This document shows, piece by piece, positions 8,947 through 24,695 of a stretch of DNA of 27,442 nt. The position numbers were made by a program, and so were the translations under genes. Under the pieces are notes generated by a model. That model was not told the DNA's origin, made no database searches, and saw nothing but the letters and a program-made list of their open reading frames with translations. Numbering within the stretch: the stretch's first letter is position 1; every line of letters begins with the position of its first letter. The DNA is from a virus: IMG/VR virus record IMGVR_UViG_3300045911_000045, positions 1 through 27,442 of that record; one strand, written 5' to 3'.

Positions 8947-9777
8947 CTATATAGTTGTTACAAACATCTTTTGGCCCATCAATCTTTGGAGCTGTTTTAA
9001 GATTTCTTTCTTTTTAAGTTGAAGCTCGTTAATTCGAGTTTGGAAGATAGCAGGACCAGGATTCGAAGAACTCTGACCGATACCGTCTTGGCTGATGCTG
9101 ACCGAAGTGTTCGAATTATTGGGCGCGATACTGCTTAAAATATTTAACGCAGCATATATTCCAATCAGGTTGTTAACAACGATAGGAACCTGACCTGCAT
9201 CTTTTGAAAGGCCGGCAGTAATAGTAATTTGCCAGTAGGTAGGAACCCATTGAAGACCATCCATAACAGTTAAAAAAGCAATACCTGCATTTCCAACGGC
9301 TCCTGTTACAGAGTTGACTCCGTAAGCAGCAAGCAAAGGAACAACATTGATAAGTCTTTGGTGGAAGTTTCCTGTATCAATCCATTCTGATGGGATTTCG
9401 AAAATATTTTCCCTATTAGCAGAAACAATCGCAAGCTGTTCGATAGAAATGATAGGCCCTGCATTTGATCTCAAATGAATATATGACTTGTAATCATTAT
9501 AATGGAAAGGAAGCCTTTCAACAAACTGCTCAGCAAAAACTGGAACTTTAAGCTCGATCTCAATTTCATTGATCGCAAGGTTGATCTGATCTTTAAGCTC
9601 GTCGTTTGAATAGCTTACGCCTGCAGGAAGTTTTTCAAGAATACCTTTTAAGTATCTGCTTTTTAGCTTTGCAGGAGTAAGAAGAGGCTCTACCCTGGAA
9701 AGAAGGCCAGATGTTCCATTTGCTTGAACAGGATAGGTTTTTGTGTTTATAGCTTTTGTTTTTGTGTAATCAGCCAT
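8947..9777 (-). CDS. Probable head-tail connector (gp6-like adaptor)
   Basis: 276 residues. The N-terminal part (K-S-R-Y-L-K-G-I-L, then L-K-D-Q-I-N-L-A-I-N-E-I-E-I-E-L) has the helical pattern of gp6-like connector proteins that form the ring under the portal. A middle region with P-T-Y-W-Q-I-T-I-T-A-G and a helical, Lys-rich C-terminus follow. I chose ATG 9777 because it forms TAATG with the upstream stop and has GGGCGG 6 nt upstream. ATG 9783, two codons earlier, is the alternative but abuts that site. It stops 7 nt before the 875-residue gene. The connector role is from pattern recall, not a firm match. Confidence 0.68.
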   Translation of the reverse strand: MADYTKTKAINTKTYPVQANGTSGLLSRVEPLLTPAKLKSRYLKGILEKLPAGVSYSNDELKDQINLAINEIEIELKVPVFAEQFVERLPFHYNDYKSYIHLRSNAGPIISIEQLAIVSANRENIFEIPSEWIDTGNFHQRLINVVPLLAAYGVNSVTGAVGNAGIAFLTVMDGLQWVPTYWQITITAGLSKDAGQVPIVVNNLIGIYAALNILSSIAPNNSNTSVSISQDGIGQSSSNPGPAIFQTRINELQLKKKEILKQLQRLMGQKMFVTTI

Positions 9778-10163
9778 TAGCATCCGCCCTGATTAAACAT
9801 TTCCACAACAAGACCTTGTAACACAACAAAACGTCTTGTGACGCCGCCTTCGGTAAGGATAAATTGAACGTTTCCTGAGCTTGGTTTTTCTGTACTCAGA
9901 AGGTCTACTTTCCATAGGGAACCATCGAGAGTAGAGGCTGCGGTTGCTGTTTTTGTGATAACGTTGTCTGGGTTTACCGCTGGGAAAACAACCTGAACAG
10001 AAGGACTTGCTCCTGTAGGGATATATCTCAATCCGTCTTGGTCAAGATCAATGAGCTGAAAATAGAGGGTATTAGGCTCATCATGTCTAATTGTCCACTC
10101 AGAAGACTTCTGAAAAGAGTTAACGTTTTGAAAATTTTTCAAAGTTTGTGCTGAAAGTCTCAC
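9777..10163 (-). CDS. Small beta-sandwich virion protein, first gene of the minus-strand unit
   Basis: 128 residues starting at GTG 10163 with TAGGAG upstream. Composition is beta-rich (L-Y-F-Q-L-I-D-L-D-Q-D-G, then S-V-Q-V-V-F-P-A-V, then V-Q-F-I-L-T-E-G-G-V-T-R-R-F-V-V) and ends G-G-C. It resembles Ig-like or N-terminal fibre/baseplate domains in phage virions, but no specific family is recognised. It is the first gene after the divergent spacer facing the dNMP-kinase-like gene and is coupled to the connector gene by TAATG. A GGCAATCTTTAAAGA element lies 20 nt upstream of the start (see separate entry). Confidence 0.75.
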   Translation of the reverse strand: MRLSAQTLKNFQNVNSFQKSSEWTIRHDEPNTLYFQLIDLDQDGLRYIPTGASPSVQVVFPAVNPDNVITKTATAASTLDGSLWKVDLLSTEKPSSGNVQFILTEGGVTRRFVVLQGLVVEMFNQGGC

Positions 10164-15158: not shown

Positions 15159-16157
15159 CTAGTCGTTCTCGCTATCGTCATCTATTGTGGTCCAAATATC
15201 ATCCTCAGTATCAAGGGAGTCTGGGCTGTTTAGGTTGGACAAAATCTTAATTCCAGAACGAAAACCATTTTCGGTTTCCTCATCAATTTCAACAGCTTCC
15301 AAGATTCTGAATGGCGTTTTAAGCCAACTATTTTCTACCTGTCCGGTTAGGGTTATATAGCGACTAAAAACATTTTCACCACCAGGGCCTTCGAAATTGG
15401 GATTCTGCATAAAATCGCTGCTACTTACCGAGCTTTGCATAAACTGTCTTCCCTCTAAAAGGCTTTCTCGGTATCTTAAAATTGTATAAAGCACAATTGC
15501 ATGGAGCCAAAGAAGGGTCGCAGGATCACCGTGAACATGGCACCCAATCGAATAGGTCTCTTGGAAAAAGGTGTGCTCTCTTCTTGCCTTATAAAATTGA
15601 TATTTAGGTACAATACCAGCCTTTGTAAGGGTAAGATCAAGATCAGGTTCTAGCTTTAGGCCGCCCGAAACTACTTCTTGGATGATATACCCGTTTCCAG
15701 TATTTGGGTCAACCAAAATTTGACCAGCCCGAACACCTCTAAGTTTTACGGATTTGGGTACGGAAAGGATTCCAGTTGTTTGGTTGTAAGAATCTGGAAT
15801 AAAGGGTTTTACTATGTACGGAATAGGTTTTCCGATCTGGTTAGGCATTAAAGTTTCAACTTCTGTTGAAAGATCGGCAAGATGCTTCATGTCTTCTTTT
15901 TCAGCAGAACTTCCAAGAGCTATTGTTACACAGGGAAACTGATCTTTGTCGTTTCGGTAGCGAAGATTAACTTCGATCTTATTGTTCATGAACCAGTCTT
16001 TGGCTGCGTCGATCTCTTTTTGGCCGTACTTATCTTTTAAAGCAGGCTCTTTTGTAAAACTTGCAAAAACGTCATCAAGAAGCCATAGGTTTTTCCTCAT
16101 GTCTTCTAGACCTTGGCGTATTGCCTCAGCTATGATTACGTCTCCAGCAAAGATCAT
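15159..16157 (-). CDS. Probable neck/tail-junction structural protein
   Basis: 332 residues. The N-terminal third is helical (A-E-A-I-R-Q-G-L-E-D-M-R-K-N). A beta-rich middle has I-P-Y-I-V-K-P-F-I-P and G-Q-I-L-V-D-P-N-T-G-N-G-Y-I-I. A mixed region follows (H-G-D-P-A-T-L-L-W-L-H-A-I-V-L-Y), and the tail is acidic. Its ATG overlaps the upstream neck-protein stop by 4 nt (ATGA). I recall no definite family. Position between a gp10-like neck protein and the sheath/tube pair suggests a tail terminator or connector role. Confidence 0.65.
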   Translation of the reverse strand: MIFAGDVIIAEAIRQGLEDMRKNLWLLDDVFASFTKEPALKDKYGQKEIDAAKDWFMNNKIEVNLRYRNDKDQFPCVTIALGSSAEKEDMKHLADLSTEVETLMPNQIGKPIPYIVKPFIPDSYNQTTGILSVPKSVKLRGVRAGQILVDPNTGNGYIIQEVVSGGLKLEPDLDLTLTKAGIVPKYQFYKARREHTFFQETYSIGCHVHGDPATLLWLHAIVLYTILRYRESLLEGRQFMQSSVSSSDFMQNPNFEGPGGENVFSRYITLTGQVENSWLKTPFRILEAVEIDEETENGFRSGIKILSNLNSPDSLDTEDDIWTTIDDDSEND

Positions 16158-16912
16158 TTTGTATACTTCTCCAAAATTGAAGGGAGGATCTCATCGTTAA
16201 AGATTTTCTCTGCCCATTCCAAAGCTTCATCCATAAATTTCTTACCATCAGACCCTGGATGAATCCACTTAGAACCCTTATGTTTAGAACTTACAACCCT
16301 AAATGTCATAATATCACGTCGAACCTTACCGGACGGCAGTTTTCGTTGATATATCGTAAGACCGTCTAGGGCTCCGTGTGATGCTCTAGCACTGGGTTTT
16401 AAGGAGCTTATATCCTTTATGGTGTGAAGCCTGCCAAGCCTAGGGCTGCCATCACTGTTATATTCAATTTTTTTATAGGGTATCTTTCTAGCTTTAAGCT
16501 CAGACTTTATCTGATTCACAAACATCAAAGCACTTGCAGATGTTTGGCTAGGAGCCTTTGCGTGGTCGAAAGGTATTGCTTTATATTTCGAGCCGTCTTT
16601 TGCTGTCTTAGCGTTCTTTCTGAGCAGATCTTCCGTCATATCGCCAGCTTTTCTTCCCTCTTCAATCCAAAGGGCAGGCTGATCGAGACTCACAACCCAA
16701 ATGCCATTTTCAATTTCTTGAAATTCAAGATTGTCTAAATATATCTGTCTAGTTGAGTGCAGTTTTTCAGATGCAAGCTCTTGTGTTTTGGCATAAGTCA
16801 TAGATGCCACTTGCTTTACGCCTTGGGTAATAGCTTCTTCGATTTCTTTTTTAAGCTCGCCAAATTCCTGAGCAATTGCTTCGGCGTTTACAAAAAATCT
16901 AAGATTTGACAT
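16154..16912 (-). CDS. Neck / tail-completion protein (HK97 gp10-like)
   Basis: 252 residues. An N-terminal helical region (F-G-E-L-K-K-E-I-E-E-A-I-T-Q-G-V-K-Q-V-A) is followed by W-I-E-E-G-R-K-A-G-D-M and a C-terminal K-H-K-G-S-K-W-I-H-P-G-S-D-G-K-K-F-M-D-E-A. This arrangement resembles gp10-type head-tail joining proteins. Its ATG overlaps by 1 nt (TAATG) the stop of an upstream 69-codon frame that has no start of its own. It also overlaps the next gene by 4 nt. The coupling at the start supports the reality of the upstream frame. Family assignment is moderate. Confidence 0.68.
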   Translation of the reverse strand: MSNLRFFVNAEAIAQEFGELKKEIEEAITQGVKQVASMTYAKTQELASEKLHSTRQIYLDNLEFQEIENGIWVVSLDQPALWIEEGRKAGDMTEDLLRKNAKTAKDGSKYKAIPFDHAKAPSQTSASALMFVNQIKSELKARKIPYKKIEYNSDGSPRLGRLHTIKDISSLKPSARASHGALDGLTIYQRKLPSGKVRRDIMTFRVVSSKHKGSKWIHPGSDGKKFMDEALEWAEKIFNDEILPSILEKYTK

Positions 16913-17121
16913 TAGTACCTCTCGTGAGTAATGTCGCCACCATTATCCAATAACATTCCAATTTTTGCATCTACATATTTCATTCTTCCGGTTTGATTAT
17001 CAACAACTTTTATGCGACCATCGTTTGTGACGAAACCTTCGGGTTTTTCCGGTTTGGCGACATGACGTGTCGTTTGTTTGGCTGGCAGGCGTCGCGTGCC
17101 TATCCCTGTCAGCCGTTCTGC
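16912..17121 (-). CDS. Hidden 69-codon frame, probable -1 frameshift extension of the palm-domain gene
   Basis: From 17121 down to TAA at 16914-16912, the frame one base back from the 17109-18401 gene is open and reads as ordinary protein. It includes K-P-E-K-P-E-G-F-V-T-N-D-G-R-I-K-V-V, then G-R-M-K-Y-V-D-A-K-I-G-M-L-L-D-N-G-G-D and a final T-H-E-R-Y. No ATG, GTG or TTG with a ribosome binding site begins it; the first in-frame ATG lies 45 codons in. Its TAA overlaps the next ATG as TAATG. The slippery heptamer and stem just upstream indicate expression as a C-terminal extension. An independent gene using a rare start is the alternative. Confidence 0.7.
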   Translation of the reverse strand, partial: AERLTGIGTRRLPAKQTTRHVAKPEKPEGFVTNDGRIKVVDNQTGRMKYVDAKIGMLLDNGGDITHERY

Positions 17122-17127
17122 TTTGGG
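17057..17127 (-). promoter_or_regulatory. Programmed -1 ribosomal frameshift signal
   Basis: On the minus strand: slippery C-CCA-AAG (17127-17121) in the correct phase of the zero frame; 6-nt spacer CAGAAC; stem GGCTGACAGG (17114-17105) with CCTGCCAGCC (17089-17080), one A-C mismatch in 10 pairs; 15-nt loop. Loop bases GCGAC (17095-17091) can pair with GTCGC (17061-17057) to make an H-type pseudoknot. The zero-frame stop TGA lies inside the 5' arm. No T-tract follows, so it is not a terminator. Confidence 0.72.
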
Positions 17128-18401
17128 AGTTGCTGCTCCAACTGCTGTTGTTGAGGGATATTCCCAGAAGGAACATCGATCATCTCTTCTTCCTGTTCTG
17201 GTGACACAGCGTCAGGACTGATCATCTTAGCAAGTTCGATCATGTTATGAAGAAGCCCCAACATGGAAGCGTAAAGCTCCGGTTTAGCTTCTTTGATTTG
17301 GTCCATAAGTTCTTTGTTTTGTTTAAAAGCATCAAGATTTGCGGCGATTCTTTGTAGAATATCTTCGTTAACGTCAGCATCTGCAAGGTCCGCATCAATA
17401 CTGTCTTCTTCTGTCGCCATTTCAGGGTCTGCTTTTTCAGCATTTGGATCTTCCTGATTTTCATCAAGAACATCCTCACCCTCAAGAGCGATAGTCGGCT
17501 CTTGTTCAAATTCAGATGGTTCTGATTGCTCATCCTCAGTCATGAAGTCTTCTTCTATATCAGACTGATCTTCATTTAAATCAACTGGAAATTCTCCATC
17601 AGACTCTGCATCTTCATTATTTTGATCTTGGTATTCGTCATACTGATCTTGGTATTCGTCATACTGATCTTGGTATTCGTCATACTGATCTTGGTATTCG
17701 TCATACTGATCTTGGTATTCGTCATACTGATCTTGGTATTCGTCATACTGATCTTGGTATTCGTCATCATCCATAGGAATTTCTCCGTCAGGAACGACGT
17801 CTTCATCTACCATCTCATCTTCTGGCAAAGAATCTTCCATACCCTCAGGTAATTGCATCATATCTTCTGGAGATTCTTCGTAAAATTCAGAATCCTCATC
17901 TTGAGGCATTTCTTCGTCTATTGGGGCCTGTTGGTCCTCTGCAATTGCATGAATATAGTGATCATCCATTTTTTGCTGTTCTTCATTAGCGGTTCCGGCC
18001 CGAGCCGCCTCATGAGCTTCGTTCAGTGCGTCCTCAACTGATTGGTCATATCGAACAGATTTGTTTTTTCCGGTGAGCTTAGCGGCAATCAAGGCCTTTC
18101 CAGCTTGGCTTAAGCTATTTCCTAAGCCAACAGAGGCAGAAAATCCTGTAATCTCTTTGTATTTTTCTCGCATTTCTTCTATTTTTGATTCATGCTCAGG
18201 ATCTAAAATTGCAGTCAGCTCATCTCCGCCAGAACTAATAATCTGTCCGCCCAAAGCAAGTATCATGTCTTTCACAGCTTTGCTTCCTGCGTCAATTTTT
18301 CTTGACATATCATGCAGCATCTGAACGTCATCCATCAAAACAGCTTGTCCGATGTGCTGCCCTGCGTTATCTCCATCTAAGGCTATGAACAAACGATTCA
18401 T
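17109..18401 (-). CDS. mCpol/GGDEF-like nucleotidyl-cyclase palm domain with long acidic repeat tail
   Basis: 430 residues in the zero frame (496 if frameshifted). Residues 1-118 look like a nucleotidyl cyclase/polymerase palm of the minimal CRISPR polymerase type. Visible motifs are F-I-A-L-D9-G-D11-N-A-G, G-G-Q-I-I-S-S-G-G-D60-E-L, F-S-A-S-V-G-L-G-N-S (87-96) and A-K-L-T-G-K-N-K (107-114). The metal-binding acids are present, so cyclic or oligonucleotide synthesis is plausible. Residues ~150-370 are extremely acidic and include seven D-E-Y-Q-D-Q-Y repeats. A helical segment and Gln-rich end follow. ATG overlaps the upstream stop (ATGA) and has AGGAG. Lying inside the neck/tail operon, it may be a virion protein (inference). 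A degenerate, structural use of the fold is possible. Confidence 0.72.
   Translation of the reverse strand: MNRLFIALDGDNAGQHIGQAVLMDDVQMLHDMSRKIDAGSKAVKDMILALGGQIISSGGDELTAILDPEHESKIEEMREKYKEITGFSASVGLGNSLSQAGKALIAAKLTGKNKSVRYDQSVEDALNEAHEAARAGTANEEQQKMDDHYIHAIAEDQQAPIDEEMPQDEDSEFYEESPEDMMQLPEGMEDSLPEDEMVDEDVVPDGEIPMDDDEYQDQYDEYQDQYDEYQDQYDEYQDQYDEYQDQYDEYQDQYDEYQDQNNEDAESDGEFPVDLNEDQSDIEEDFMTEDEQSEPSEFEQEPTIALEGEDVLDENQEDPNAEKADPEMATEEDSIDADLADADVNEDILQRIAANLDAFKQNKELMDQIKEAKPELYASMLGLLHNMIELAKMISPDAVSPEQEEEMIDVPSGNIPQQQQLEQQLPKQNG
17623..17766 (-). repeat. Seven tandem 21-bp coding repeats (DEYQDQY)
   Basis: Six full 21-bp units plus a seventh of 18 bp, starting every 21 nt from 17623 to 17749 and apparently identical in sequence. 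Each encodes Asp-Glu-Tyr-Gln-Asp-Gln-Tyr; the last copy in the protein ends in Asn. Nucleotide identity points to recent expansion by slippage or recombination. The period is a multiple of three, so copy number can change without breaking the frame. Confidence 0.95.
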
Positions 18402-19330
18402 TTTTTACTCCTGTTTCTTCTCTCTCGGAGAACCTCAAGTAACATTTCAATGTTTTCTGGGTCCCATTGCTTAGAAAAACTAAGCTGAAGTCCGGTTTCA
18501 CTTTTCCTGATATGAATCTTTTTATTTCGATCGGGGCCGAAGCAGATACATCCAGAAAAACCACTTTCATCAAAAATTTTATTTCCGCAATCTGGACAGG
18601 TTACGGATTCGCTTTTTTCAATTTTAATTTCATACGAAGGATTGGAAGCTTTTGCAGCTTTCTTTTCAAGAAACTGTTTTAGTTTTAATGGCTTCTTTTC
18701 CATGGTAAGCTTTTTTTCTTCCTTCTCTTGCGAGCTATTTAGCTTTTCTGAAGAACCCGAGCTTTCAAGTAGCATCTGGGAAAGCCTCATCTTAACAAGC
18801 TCTTCAATAGCCTGTCTTTGAGAAAGCTTTTCATCAACAACTTTAGACACAAGATCTCTAAGCCTAAGCTTTTCATCTATGATGTCTTGAACACGTTCAA
18901 GATCCAAAAGATCGGAAGAAGATTGCTTACCCATGCGGCTAAGATCATCAATGTCGTATAACTCGAAAGCCGACATGATGACGAGACCGACCCCAGGTAA
19001 GGACCGATATTTAAATGAGCTTACGATCTCGCTTTTTTGCCGGATTTCTCCAGAGTAGACGTCATTTGCAAATTTAGTGACGCTCAAAAAAGCCTCGGGC
19101 TCTATCGGAATTTTGATTTCCTTTCCTTCGTTCTCCTTCATTTCTCCAAGTTCTTTTTGTAAAAAACTTAGAATTGTTCTCGGTACAATCTGAAGAGCCG
19201 TTTTAATCTCTTCAGGGTCTAAGACCGTATTGGTCTTTTTTTTATATAGCTCTACCTTGTTAAGCTCCTCAAAGCCGTCTTCACCTAAAGTTTTTTTCAA
19301 AAAAATGATAGCTTGAGGTTTATAGGTCAT
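18398..19330 (-). CDS. Virion-operon protein with C-terminal zinc-ribbon-like Cys cluster
   Basis: 310 residues. The N-terminal ~190 residues are helical and charged. A linker holds K-P-L-K-L-K-Q-F-L-E-K-K-A-A-K, the motif shared with three neighbours. The C-terminal domain has T-C-P-D-C-G-N-K-I-F and G-C-I-C-F-G, a C-x2-C...C-x-C arrangement suggesting one bound zinc. K-S-E occurs at three places (Q-K-S-E-I, E-K-S-E-S, R-K-S-E-T), two of them flanking the Cys cluster. It couples to the palm-domain gene by ATGA, suggesting coordinated production. Unknown family. Confidence 0.72.
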   Translation of the reverse strand: MTYKPQAIIFLKKTLGEDGFEELNKVELYKKKTNTVLDPEEIKTALQIVPRTILSFLQKELGEMKENEGKEIKIPIEPEAFLSVTKFANDVYSGEIRQKSEIVSSFKYRSLPGVGLVIMSAFELYDIDDLSRMGKQSSSDLLDLERVQDIIDEKLRLRDLVSKVVDEKLSQRQAIEELVKMRLSQMLLESSGSSEKLNSSQEKEEKKLTMEKKPLKLKQFLEKKAAKASNPSYEIKIEKSESVTCPDCGNKIFDESGFSGCICFGPDRNKKIHIRKSETGLQLSFSKQWDPENIEMLLEVLRERRNRSKK

Positions 19331-21648: not shown

Positions 21649-22692
21649 TTACCTCAACTTGGTTTCTTTTTTAACTGGTTGCGAGTGATAAAGAGCTACG
21701 ACGTTTCTCATATCTTCTCGGGGATGCTTTGAAGCCGTAAAACCATGATGGCCACCCTGCTTGATAAGCTCGTGCATCATGTCCATATTGAAAGCTCCGT
21801 TGTTATTTTGTCGAACCTGCTCAGCATATCCCATTGGATCTTCGCTAATATCGTAAATGCTTGCTTCTTCTGGGATCTCAACGGTATATTTTGATCTAGC
21901 GACTGAAGCAACGATATGCTCTGGCTCTGTTCCTGCTATATAGTAAAAACTATGGGGGTGTTTCGTATCTCTACCCTTAACGCCACGATCTACACCGGTT
22001 TGCTTATAAGAAGGGTCGATAGATTGTAAGTTTTCCTGAGGAGAATAGTGTTCAAGTTGACGTTTCGATTCAACTTTACTCATAAACTGTTTAAGTTTTT
22101 CAGACTTGCCCATGTCCTCAGATTTAGAACACTTCCAACGTTTAAGAGCTGCGCCCTTAGGAGTTAATTTTCCATCTTTAGATGTAGGAGCTTTGATTGC
22201 AGACATTCTGGCACAAAAACTCTTTCGGCGTTTTGCTGCCTTAGAGCCAGGCTTAACATCGCCAGTTACCGGTCTTTTAAGATTTGAGCCTGTTTCGCGG
22301 TTGTACTTCTTACGATAGGAATCGTTAAGGCCGCCTTCTTTTGAGTGTTTTTTTTCATTATACCCATGGAAAGGCTTATCGGCCTTTTCCATCTGAGATT
22401 TTTCCATGTAGGCTTTATAGATTTTTGGCATGTTTTCACCAATTACATCCATATGTTCTTTCATGCCGTGCTCAGAGATTTCGGTTTCAGCGATCTTTTC
22501 TCCTGTTTCTTCAACATAGACACAAACGTGTGAACCTTCATCGTGCTGACAAAACTCAATGATAAGAGGGCCTACATGAATATGGTCGACATCACACTTT
22601 GAATGATCTTCAGATTCAAAATCCGAGTACATGTCATAGTCTGACTGTTTATTAAAATCGGTAGTCATATTGTATGGAGAGTTCTTTTTCAT
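21649..22692 (-). CDS. Multidomain protein: SFCARM module plus ADP-ribosyltransferase-like C-terminus
   Basis: 347 residues. Residues 1-100 are acidic and His-rich. Residues 119-188 form a basic module G-G-L-N-D-S-Y-R-K-K-Y then R-K-S-F-C-A-R-M and K-L-T-P-K-G-A-A-L-K-R-W-K-C. I have seen similar modules in many phage proteins, and DUF6321 is my best but unsure recollection. Residues 194-206 hold K-S-E-K-L-K-Q-F-M-S-K. Residues 213-340 (L-E-H-Y-S-P, I-D-P-S-Y-K-Q-T-G, S-I-Y-D-I-S-E-D-P, V-V-A-L-Y-H) resemble the HYS...GTG...YD domain of phage polyvalent or toxin proteins, which may be ADP-ribosyltransferase-like. It lies 2 nt after the protease gene. An injected effector is possible; this is inference. 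Confidence 0.65.
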   Translation of the reverse strand: MKKNSPYNMTTDFNKQSDYDMYSDFESEDHSKCDVDHIHVGPLIIEFCQHDEGSHVCVYVEETGEKIAETEISEHGMKEHMDVIGENMPKIYKAYMEKSQMEKADKPFHGYNEKKHSKEGGLNDSYRKKYNRETGSNLKRPVTGDVKPGSKAAKRRKSFCARMSAIKAPTSKDGKLTPKGAALKRWKCSKSEDMGKSEKLKQFMSKVESKRQLEHYSPQENLQSIDPSYKQTGVDRGVKGRDTKHPHSFYYIAGTEPEHIVASVARSKYTVEIPEEASIYDISEDPMGYAEQVRQNNNGAFNMDMMHELIKQGGHHGFTASKHPREDMRNVVALYHSQPVKKETKLR

Positions 22693-22694
22693 AA

Positions 22695-24695
22695 CTACCT
22701 CTTCTTAAGATTTGTTTTAATCTTTTCGCTGGCAGCCATCTTTTTGGGAGCAGCAGGTTTATATCTCTGTTCCGCACGGATTTTAGCTTCTTCTGTTTTA
22801 CCACGACCACGAAGATTGATCAAAGCGTCAGGACTGCTGTCTTTAAACCAGCCTACTTCAGGGTGAAACTTTAAAGAACCTTCACGAACCTGCTCTACAC
22901 GCTCGCGTGTTTCTGGCGTCATAAGCCTAGATTGCCTATCGTAAAAAACTTTCCTACCTTTAGAGTCTTTACCTTCAACAAAACGATTTCCTTCATAGTC
23001 CAATGCTCTTTCATTTTGTTTTACAGGTTTGGTTGTTCTGTTGGCTGGAAGTCCAAGTTCACGTCGAATTGGATTTTCAACAGCCATAGGCTGTATTTCT
23101 CCAGAAGTTTTCTTTTGTTGCATGTGCCCGTACTTAGATTGAGACTCGCCCCAAAGTTTATCCATGTGTTCTTGAAACATAGCAGGTGTCATACCTTCAG
23201 GCGAAAGATACAAATGAGCCGCCTCATGAATAGCAGCATCGGGAGATGGCTGTGTTTCAAGACGTCCGGACCTCCAGTCAGGTTTTGGATCAACCCTCTT
23301 GATACCTTTCTTTTTATATTGCTCAAGAAGTTTTCTTTCTTTTTCTATACCTTCAGGAGAAAACACATCGTAGGCTGGCTGATTATCCTTATCTTCGCGC
23401 ATTTTTCCGGAAGAATCGCGCTTACCTTCGGCGGTGACCATAGGCATACCAAACCTACGTTGCGCAAAATCTCTAATTTGCTGCATCATCTTCATTCTTT
23501 TGTCAGAGAGACGGGGAGCATTGGCGTCGGTGCCAAAGATTTTTTTTCTTTGTTCGCGAACATTTTTAGATTTATCTAGATCTTCGCCAGCCATCTTCTC
23601 AAGGGCTTCTTCGGCCTTGATCATAGATCTAGCTGTAAAGTATTTAGCCATAGCTTCTGTCTCATCTTTAGACATGCCAGGATACTTATCTTGGATAAAC
23701 TTTAAGAATTTTGCAAAGCTAGGTAGTTTTTGGATATCTTTTTCGATACCCTCAGAAACCAGGGCTTCTCCGCCAATTTTTGCAGAAGGTGCAGAAAGAC
23801 CAGAACCGGCTGTCAAAGCTTTTTTCACCCCTTTATAGTCGATCTTTCCACTTCTTTGAGGGTCAAACAGTTTGTTTGTTTTTAAACTGGCAGGACCAGA
23901 GGACATGGTCGGAGTAGCTGGGACCGCAGGTGTTAGTTTGGGTTTTGAAAAACCCATTCTTTTCTGTCTATCTTCAGTGTCTAGCTGTCTTGTTTTTTCT
24001 TTAAACTTATCAACATCGGCCTGAGACTCTGCCCACCAAGGAAGTTTTTTAGGCTTTGCAGTGGGTGCAGGTTTCTGAGCCGAAGTTCCAAGTGTTGGTA
24101 ATTTAAGGATTTTTGCGTCTTTTTGCATGATTTCAACTCCGGATTCAGATTTTGCAAAATCCAAATTTTCGTTAGGCTCACTGCCAGGCTTAAGCTCTTC
24201 GGCAACCGCTACCTTATTACAGGCCGCAGTTGTGATGGTAACCTTTCGTCCCAAAGATCTTTGAATTTCTTGGCCTTCCTTATTTAATTTTGAGCCTTCG
24301 ATTGAAAAATTGATAACATTTTTACCAGGACGACCAGCTTTGCGAGAGGCAGAATCGTATCGGACCATTGCAGCAACTTCAGCAGCCGCCTTGTGTCCCA
24401 TCCCGTCAAAAAGCTCTCCCATAACGTAAACATACGGAGCCTGAGCCTTCTGCCAAAAGTAAAGCTCATGCTCATCTTCGCAATCTTCTTCGCTAAAAAT
24501 CTTCTTTGCTTTCAATATCTTACCAACGATTTGAAAGGAATTGTCGTTCTTGTGTTCCCAGTTAAAAACCCCATCGACAGGAAGTGAGGAGATATCAAGG
24601 CCACGGATAGAAATTCTTTCGCCTGAACTGTCCAAATGTTCAGATGCAGCTATTCCATGGATCATTGTTCCGAGAGGCTTAAAATCTTTCATCAT
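22695..24695 (-). CDS. Prohead protease with long C-terminal extension carrying HEAAH
   Basis: 666 residues. Residues 1-170 look like a herpes-assemblin/HK97-type prohead serine protease. They show H-G-I-A-A-S-E-H-L-D-S-S-G-E-R, F-N-W-E-H48-K (likely catalytic His), N-F-S131-I-E-G-S (likely Ser) and K-V-T-I-T...C-N-K-V-A-V-A-E-E-L. Such enzymes cut scaffold and head proteins during maturation and usually are only 170-250 residues. Here ~490 more residues follow: a Pro/Lys linker, a helical part, then A-I-H490-E-A-A-H494-L-Y-L (HExxH zincin motif). The protein ends A-P-K-K-M-A-A-S-E plus a basic tail. Two adjacent ATGs start it, with CGGAGA upstream. It is first in the operon. The protease call is strong; the zincin call is motif-only. 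Confidence 0.78.
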   Translation of the reverse strand: MMKDFKPLGTMIHGIAASEHLDSSGERISIRGLDISSLPVDGVFNWEHKNDNSFQIVGKILKAKKIFSEEDCEDEHELYFWQKAQAPYVYVMGELFDGMGHKAAAEVAAMVRYDSASRKAGRPGKNVINFSIEGSKLNKEGQEIQRSLGRKVTITTAACNKVAVAEELKPGSEPNENLDFAKSESGVEIMQKDAKILKLPTLGTSAQKPAPTAKPKKLPWWAESQADVDKFKEKTRQLDTEDRQKRMGFSKPKLTPAVPATPTMSSGPASLKTNKLFDPQRSGKIDYKGVKKALTAGSGLSAPSAKIGGEALVSEGIEKDIQKLPSFAKFLKFIQDKYPGMSKDETEAMAKYFTARSMIKAEEALEKMAGEDLDKSKNVREQRKKIFGTDANAPRLSDKRMKMMQQIRDFAQRRFGMPMVTAEGKRDSSGKMREDKDNQPAYDVFSPEGIEKERKLLEQYKKKGIKRVDPKPDWRSGRLETQPSPDAAIHEAAHLYLSPEGMTPAMFQEHMDKLWGESQSKYGHMQQKKTSGEIQPMAVENPIRRELGLPANRTTKPVKQNERALDYEGNRFVEGKDSKGRKVFYDRQSRLMTPETRERVEQVREGSLKFHPEVGWFKDSSPDALINLRGRGKTEEAKIRAEQRYKPAAPKKMAASEKIKTNLKKR

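Follow-up and report, generated by a model that had tools for sequence, protein, structure and literature searches.

A −1 ribosomal frameshift predicted in an mCpol gene of the head-to-tail operon of large uncultured myoviruses

Among phage frameshifts, the best-known examples affect tail-chaperone genes and a small number of genes for capsid or tail proteins. In dnaX, IS elements and lambda G/GT, an X_XXY_YYZ heptamer is followed by a short spacer and a 3′ stem, and the products have a common N-terminus. Late phage proteins can gain a C-terminal extension in this way, as in T3/T7 gene 10, Lactobacillus phage A2 and Listeria phages; frameshifted and in-frame versions are interchangeable from phage to phage (PMC5009743). 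A separate line of work has described Panoptes, a host defence system in which the product of the stand-alone enzyme OptS, an mCpol (minimal CRISPR polymerase) protein, keeps a toxic effector inhibited (PMC12657230, PMC12657218). OptS residues D6 and D57 are visible in the OptS structure (PMC12657218), and a D57A mutation abolishes activity (PMC12657230). Here we describe a viral locus in which a shift signal of the known bacterial −1 class is found in a new place, a late phage mCpol gene; the literature that we searched contained no account of mCpol in a phage structural operon, nor of a frameshift in such a gene. The locus shares the heptamer, short spacer, 3′ stem and common N-terminus of dnaX, IS elements and lambda G/GT, but the gene encodes an mCpol protein and several relatives are in-frame. 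It shares with T3/T7 gene 10, A2 and the Listeria phages the extension of a late gene, but those are capsid or tail proteins, often Ig-like, whereas the extension here is a 69-residue basic tail with no detectable known domain.

The stretch analysed (the window) spans a viral record of 27,442 bases, which is probably a fragment, and all features of the gene lie on its minus strand. The zero-frame ORF (17109..18401) encodes a short product of 430 aa with a pI of about 4.05 and ends in CTC CCA AAG CAG AAC GGC TGA. An earlier note, made from the letters of the window, had proposed a programmed −1 frameshift here. The in-phase C_CCA_AAG heptamer that it described is indeed present (17121..17127), followed by the 6-nt spacer CAGAAC (17115..17120), which is conserved among relatives, and by a putative stimulatory stem (5′ arm GGCTGACAGG, 17105..17114; 3′ arm CCTGCCAGCC, 17080..17089); the 10 stem positions with one mismatch (A.C) and the 15-nt loop are also as it stated. 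The zero-frame stop (TGA, 17109..17111) lies within the 5′ arm in the window, as claimed, but this is not a conserved feature, since in relatives it falls in the spacer or beyond. A pseudoknot formed by the loop and downstream sequence (GCGAC with GTCGC) was rejected: most of the divergent relatives disrupt this pairing, which is intact in 75.6% of cells, whereas the stem is paired in 100%. A pseudoknot is not required for membership in the canonical −1 class, and the features that define this class (an in-phase X_XXY_YYZ heptamer, a structure 5–9 nt downstream and a −1 frame under selection) are all found at this site. The genes of the window contain 38 in-phase X_XXY_YYZ heptamers, of which only C_CCA_AAG lies close to the end of its gene and opens into a long −1 frame that continues past it. 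For E. coli, C_CCA_AAG has been listed among the highly shift-prone heptamers (PMC5009743), and it would presumably shift in the host of this phage as well. By folding energy, the lone window stem is unexceptional (z about −1.3 to −1.6; 11–21 of 200 shuffles as stable), so the case for frameshifting is carried by conservation and covariation. Elsewhere in the window, a gene at 9777-10163 (minus strand) holds two in-phase heptamers, TTTCCCA and AAACCCA, followed by 60–64 open −1 codons.

The −1 frame runs from CCC AAA to TAA (16912..17127) and would add 69 residues past the shift, giving a 496-aa fusion whose tail has a pI of about 9.9. Its TAA (16914-16912) overlaps the ATG of the next gene, which confirms the TAATG junction. 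The earlier note had called the 69 codons protein-like, and in agreement, dN/dS is about 0.08 (0.09/1.07, 0.067/0.73 and 0.071/1.32 for close and middle relatives), with changes mostly at third positions and stops in the other two frames. These rates show, at the level of sequence, that the −1 frame codes under purifying selection. The claim that it lacks a usable start also held: no ATG, GTG or TTG occurs in the window from the preceding −1 stop to 25 codons beyond the heptamer. The −1 frames of L002, L003, L004, L011, L019, L029, L030, L042 and L048 are likewise start-less, and among relatives no start codon occupies a conserved position. Conservation sets in at the PK encoded by the heptamer. 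In L030, the TGA that bounds the −1 frame upstream directly adjoins the heptamer, and three codons later comes the zero-frame stop, so a shift must occur at the heptamer. The tail had no credible match in Pfam or PHROGs, Ig-like domains included, and its predicted structure (pLDDT 64) was too low in confidence for a fold search.

Three queries (the full-length protein, its N-terminal domain and the −1 domain) were scanned against uncultured viral contigs. The −1 domain was present in 34 viral loci which, with the window and Myxococcus phage Mx1, make a set of 36. In 21 of these (the window and 20 others), the tail lies in the −1 frame at an in-phase C_CCA_AAG or C_CCA_AAA, and in five (L061, L066, L068, L071 and L072) it lies in the −1 frame at A_AAA_AA(A/G). 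The earlier note had proposed a search for homologues with both parts in one frame; eight such viral relatives exist among the 36 (L067, L069, L075, L076, L077, L078, L079 and L080), in the order mCpol, acidic or charged linker region, tail. As these relatives encode both parts together, they show independently that body and tail belong to one protein, with the tail at its C-terminal end. One further locus (L073, 5900-6080 of a 176,870-bp contig) has its tail domain in the +1 (or −2) frame relative to the mCpol ORF, near CAG CGA TAA and with no clear slippery site, reflecting either a +1 frameshift or an assembly indel. In annotated phage records, searched with gene DNA and protein queries, Mx1 was the single relative, found via its neighbour genes and a weak N-terminal match. 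A scan for close relatives of Mx1 found none, nor was a relative found in one-per-species bacterial genomes. The best match among predicted viral proteins was an uncharacterised protein.

Comparison of these loci revealed constraint on each part of the shift site. The codon preceding CCA ends in C in 21 of 21 C_CCA_AAR loci, despite encoding L, A, D, S, I or others; among the 18 loci that group with the window, the residue is Leu, Ala, Asp, Ser or Ile. Given the codon use of each individual gene, these choices would jointly arise with a probability of about 1e-13 when nine divergent loci are taken as independent, which is not strictly so. The spacer is 6 nt in 17 of the 18 window-group loci and 7 nt in L030. 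The arms of the stem vary, with GGCTGACAGG/CCTGCCAGCC in the window versus GGTCGGAAG/CTTCCGACC, GGTCGGTAG/CTGCCGACC and others among relatives. Changes on both sides that keep pairing filled 19 cells compared with 7.0 expected (0/500 shuffles; 13 distinct arm pairs), and the covariation score of the stem was 0.401, against 0.018–0.083 for slid versions. When arms were swapped among sequences, mean pairing was 93.3, compared with the observed 114/130, a value reached in none of 10,000 swaps. These comparisons show selection acting on the heptamer and its spacer, on the stem and on the reading frame.

The earlier note had labelled the product palm-domain and nucleotidyl-cyclase-like, a description that can be sharpened to mCpol. 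Residues 5-118 (18048..18389) match Pfam PF18182 (E 2.4e-18; 67 bits, cut-off 26.4), and a sequence search of the PDB returned the OptS/mCpol chains 9nwn/9mnr. The domain model is confident (pLDDT 93.9), and its six best PDB fold matches are all OptS/mCpol, with TM-scores of 0.87–0.91 normalised to those chains. The conserved residues of this region comprise a catalytic-type Asp (D9, with D11), a G-D60-E motif and S33; D9 and D60 align with OptS D6 and D57. The equivalent Asp pair is kept in 27 of 28 relatives and the serine equivalent to the ATP-selecting OptS S30 in 28 of 28. By sequence and model, then, the gene product is an mCpol protein, whose mCpol domain has probably retained nucleotide binding and might synthesise a cyclic dinucleotide. 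Mx1 is missing both catalytic Asp residues, so catalysis is not essential across the whole family. The domain is thus the same by sequence and fold as that of Panoptes OptS/mCpol (PDB 9mnr, 9pd0, 9nwn), selectivity serine included, but whereas OptS serves host defence as a stand-alone enzyme paired with a 2TM-beta effector, the phage domain forms the N-terminus of a long acidic phage protein encoded in a head-tail operon. Within residues 151-330 there are 76 D/E and 1 K/R. The contrast between an acidic body (pI about 4) and a basic tail recurs in nine of nine relatives measured. A conserved helical segment, NEDILQRIAANLDAFKQNKELMDQIKEAKPELYASMLGLLHNMIELAKMISPD (17211..17369), is common to Mx1 (hhalign E 1e-7).

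The gene is preceded by a conserved upstream neighbour (18398..19330, minus strand; 310 aa) and followed by a 252-aa gene (16154..16912, minus strand) that is related to SPO1 gp7.1, from the head-tail connector region. This slot, upstream of the sheath gene, is constant wherever both flanks were detected (23 loci checked); the exceptions in the survey were L064, with no detectable 252-aa match, and L070, which is truncated upstream. Gene order matches the head-to-tail region of Herelleviridae, and SPO1-type phages of this family have the flanking genes but lack the mCpol gene. In a 149-kb relative, the terminase, portal, major head protein, sheath and tube genes stand in line. Because the late-operon slot is fixed, we read the mCpol gene, from this gene order, as a core late gene of large uncultured myoviruses and not as stray cargo. 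No effector domain was found in the two genes adjoining the mCpol gene; across the loci checked, the neighbours were conserved head/neck and tail genes, unlike the operon with a 2TM effector that marks Panoptes. Further upstream in the window, a 666-aa protein (22695-24695, minus strand) has a weak N-terminal head-maturation-protease match and adjoins a DUF6321 protein (21649-22692, minus strand), and the 149-kb relative has one separate gene (L053, 9279-11231) with PHROG matches of both kinds. A large upstream operon protein in L042 (796-3240) has a weak, sub-threshold match to ART-PolyVal (ADP-ribosyltransferase, polyvalent phage proteins).

The Mx1 protein (WNM70340.1, a hypothetical protein) shares the operon slot, the palm (hhalign E 1.8e-8) and the helical segment, directly after which comes C_CCA_AAA, where the −1 frame closes one codon later. 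It differs in being a single 468-aa frame that has lost the catalytic residues, and no homology was found between its C-terminus and the −1 domain (hhalign prob 0.1–2.6; 60/300 shuffles as good). The literature gave no usable account of Mx1 virion proteomics. An mCpol-domain tree requires at least three changes between in-frame and frameshift coding, and frameshift forms are nested among in-frame relatives (L074, with C_CCA_AAA, and L070, as judged by tail sequence). Four of the eight in-frame relatives (L069, L078, L079 and L080) carry an in-phase slippery heptamer at the junction, compared with 0.5 expected from gene-wide frequency or 1.1 from synonymous resampling, and in these four the −1 frame closes within 3–16 codons. 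A strong hairpin follows the junction heptamer in L069 (z −4.6) and L080 (z −3.9). This arrangement resembles dnaX, where the −1 frame terminates, and suggests that some in-frame phages may still make a short form by slipping. Frameshifting is not needed for the long form in the in-frame relatives, and having both forms is thus not a requirement everywhere, unless short forms arise by another route.

The earlier reading of a programmed −1 frameshift is supported by the conserved site, the compensated stem, purifying selection and the in-frame relatives, and canonical −1 programmed ribosomal frameshifting almost certainly decodes the gene. The majority of ribosomes would stop at the TGA (17111-17109) and release the 430-residue acidic mCpol protein. 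A fraction would pause at the stem 6 nt downstream of the heptamer, where both tRNAs would slip from CCA AAG to CCC AAA, and these ribosomes would append the 69-residue basic tail to give the 496-residue form. We propose that the phage needs short and long forms in a set ratio, that the acidic body would be the bulk form and that, in a minority of molecules, the basic tail might provide docking to a partner or to DNA. The protein would then act in the assembly or function of the head-neck-tail region. Taken as a whole, this combination of frameshift, ratio and docking is very probably the best explanation; the role given to the two forms is itself tentative and somewhat doubtful, and docking is a guess, given the low-confidence model of the −1 domain. 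Three features favour a role in assembly or structure: the constant operon position, the acidic body and the absence of catalysis in Mx1. The otherwise strict conservation of the putative active site favours a catalytic role as well.

Other ways of producing the tail were weighed against ribosomal frameshifting. One alternative makes the tail an independent small gene product, translated from a start codon of its own or by coupled reinitiation past the TGA; it would fit the overlap of the frames, as in translational coupling, and a GTG or TTG at −1 codon 3–13 in some relatives. It has very little credibility, since a start is absent in the window and nine relatives and none is at a conserved position, conservation begins exactly at the PK of the heptamer, and the tail is in frame with the body in eight relatives. 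We give almost no credence to a sequencing or assembly indel that split one ORF. In-frame relatives exist and L073 alone, with its +1 tail, could be such a case, but the identical frame break at the heptamer recurs in 21 independent contigs from many samples, the stems are compensated and the zero-frame stops are preserved, so that for the window this explanation is already refuted. Transcriptional slippage yielding the fusion is highly improbable: it acts on homopolymer runs, and the A_AAA_AA(A/G) relatives do have longer A runs, but the window site offers only CCC and AAA, and a covarying stem after a 6-nt spacer is a signature of ribosomal frameshifting.

Alternatives to the proposed function of the gene were also considered. 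A tail assembly chaperone (lambda G/GT) in another guise would follow a like logic, with a short form, a rarer long form and a morphogenesis operon. We consider this very unlikely, because a chaperone gene sits between tube and tape measure, whereas this gene precedes the sheath and tube genes; it is also 350–840 residues long and carries an enzyme domain. An anti-defence module in the late operon, in which mCpol would make cyclic dinucleotides and the tail would send the protein into the virion for injection, is unlikely. The catalytic Asp pair and ATP-selecting serine are kept in nearly all relatives, the fold is that of OptS, and, because the OptS product inhibits the Panoptes effector, a product supplied by the phage could likewise hold an effector inhibited. 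Against this, the fixed slot and the dead palm of Mx1 suggest a structural role, and the adjacent genes offer no effector partner. A combined scheme, which we regard as quite unlikely, would place an active mCpol cyclase in the virion or assembly line, with recoding setting the tailed, packaged fraction and, in several in-frame relatives, a polarity flipped as in dnaX. In that event the phage would deliver or make a second messenger at infection, blunting Panoptes- or CBASS-type defence.

Under the preferred reading, a wide group of uncultured myoviruses uses a −1 frameshift in one of its core late genes, and the product of this gene carries a polymerase-cyclase domain known from bacterial immunity; the fold of an immune-signalling enzyme would thereby be linked to phage particle assembly. 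About 36 hidden or half-annotated genes become readable, and the purpose of mCpol in a phage head-neck operon becomes a testable question. Since frameshifted, in-frame and possibly inverted forms occur in one family, what a phage gains from two forms is open to direct test.

The protein varies in length across the family, from 350 to 840 residues. An acidic 7-residue tandem repeat, EYQDQYD (17621..17762 in the window, minus strand), is present in unequal copy number in the near-identical window, L002 and L003. L061 (3497-6007) has a far longer body (837 aa), with a weak, sub-threshold DUF7218 match right before the shift site, and L066 has a DUF5661 domain after mCpol. In L004, identity with the window is mostly 98–100% downstream of position 18000 and about 60% upstream, which marks a recombination breakpoint inside the gene that joins another mCpol allele to the same body.
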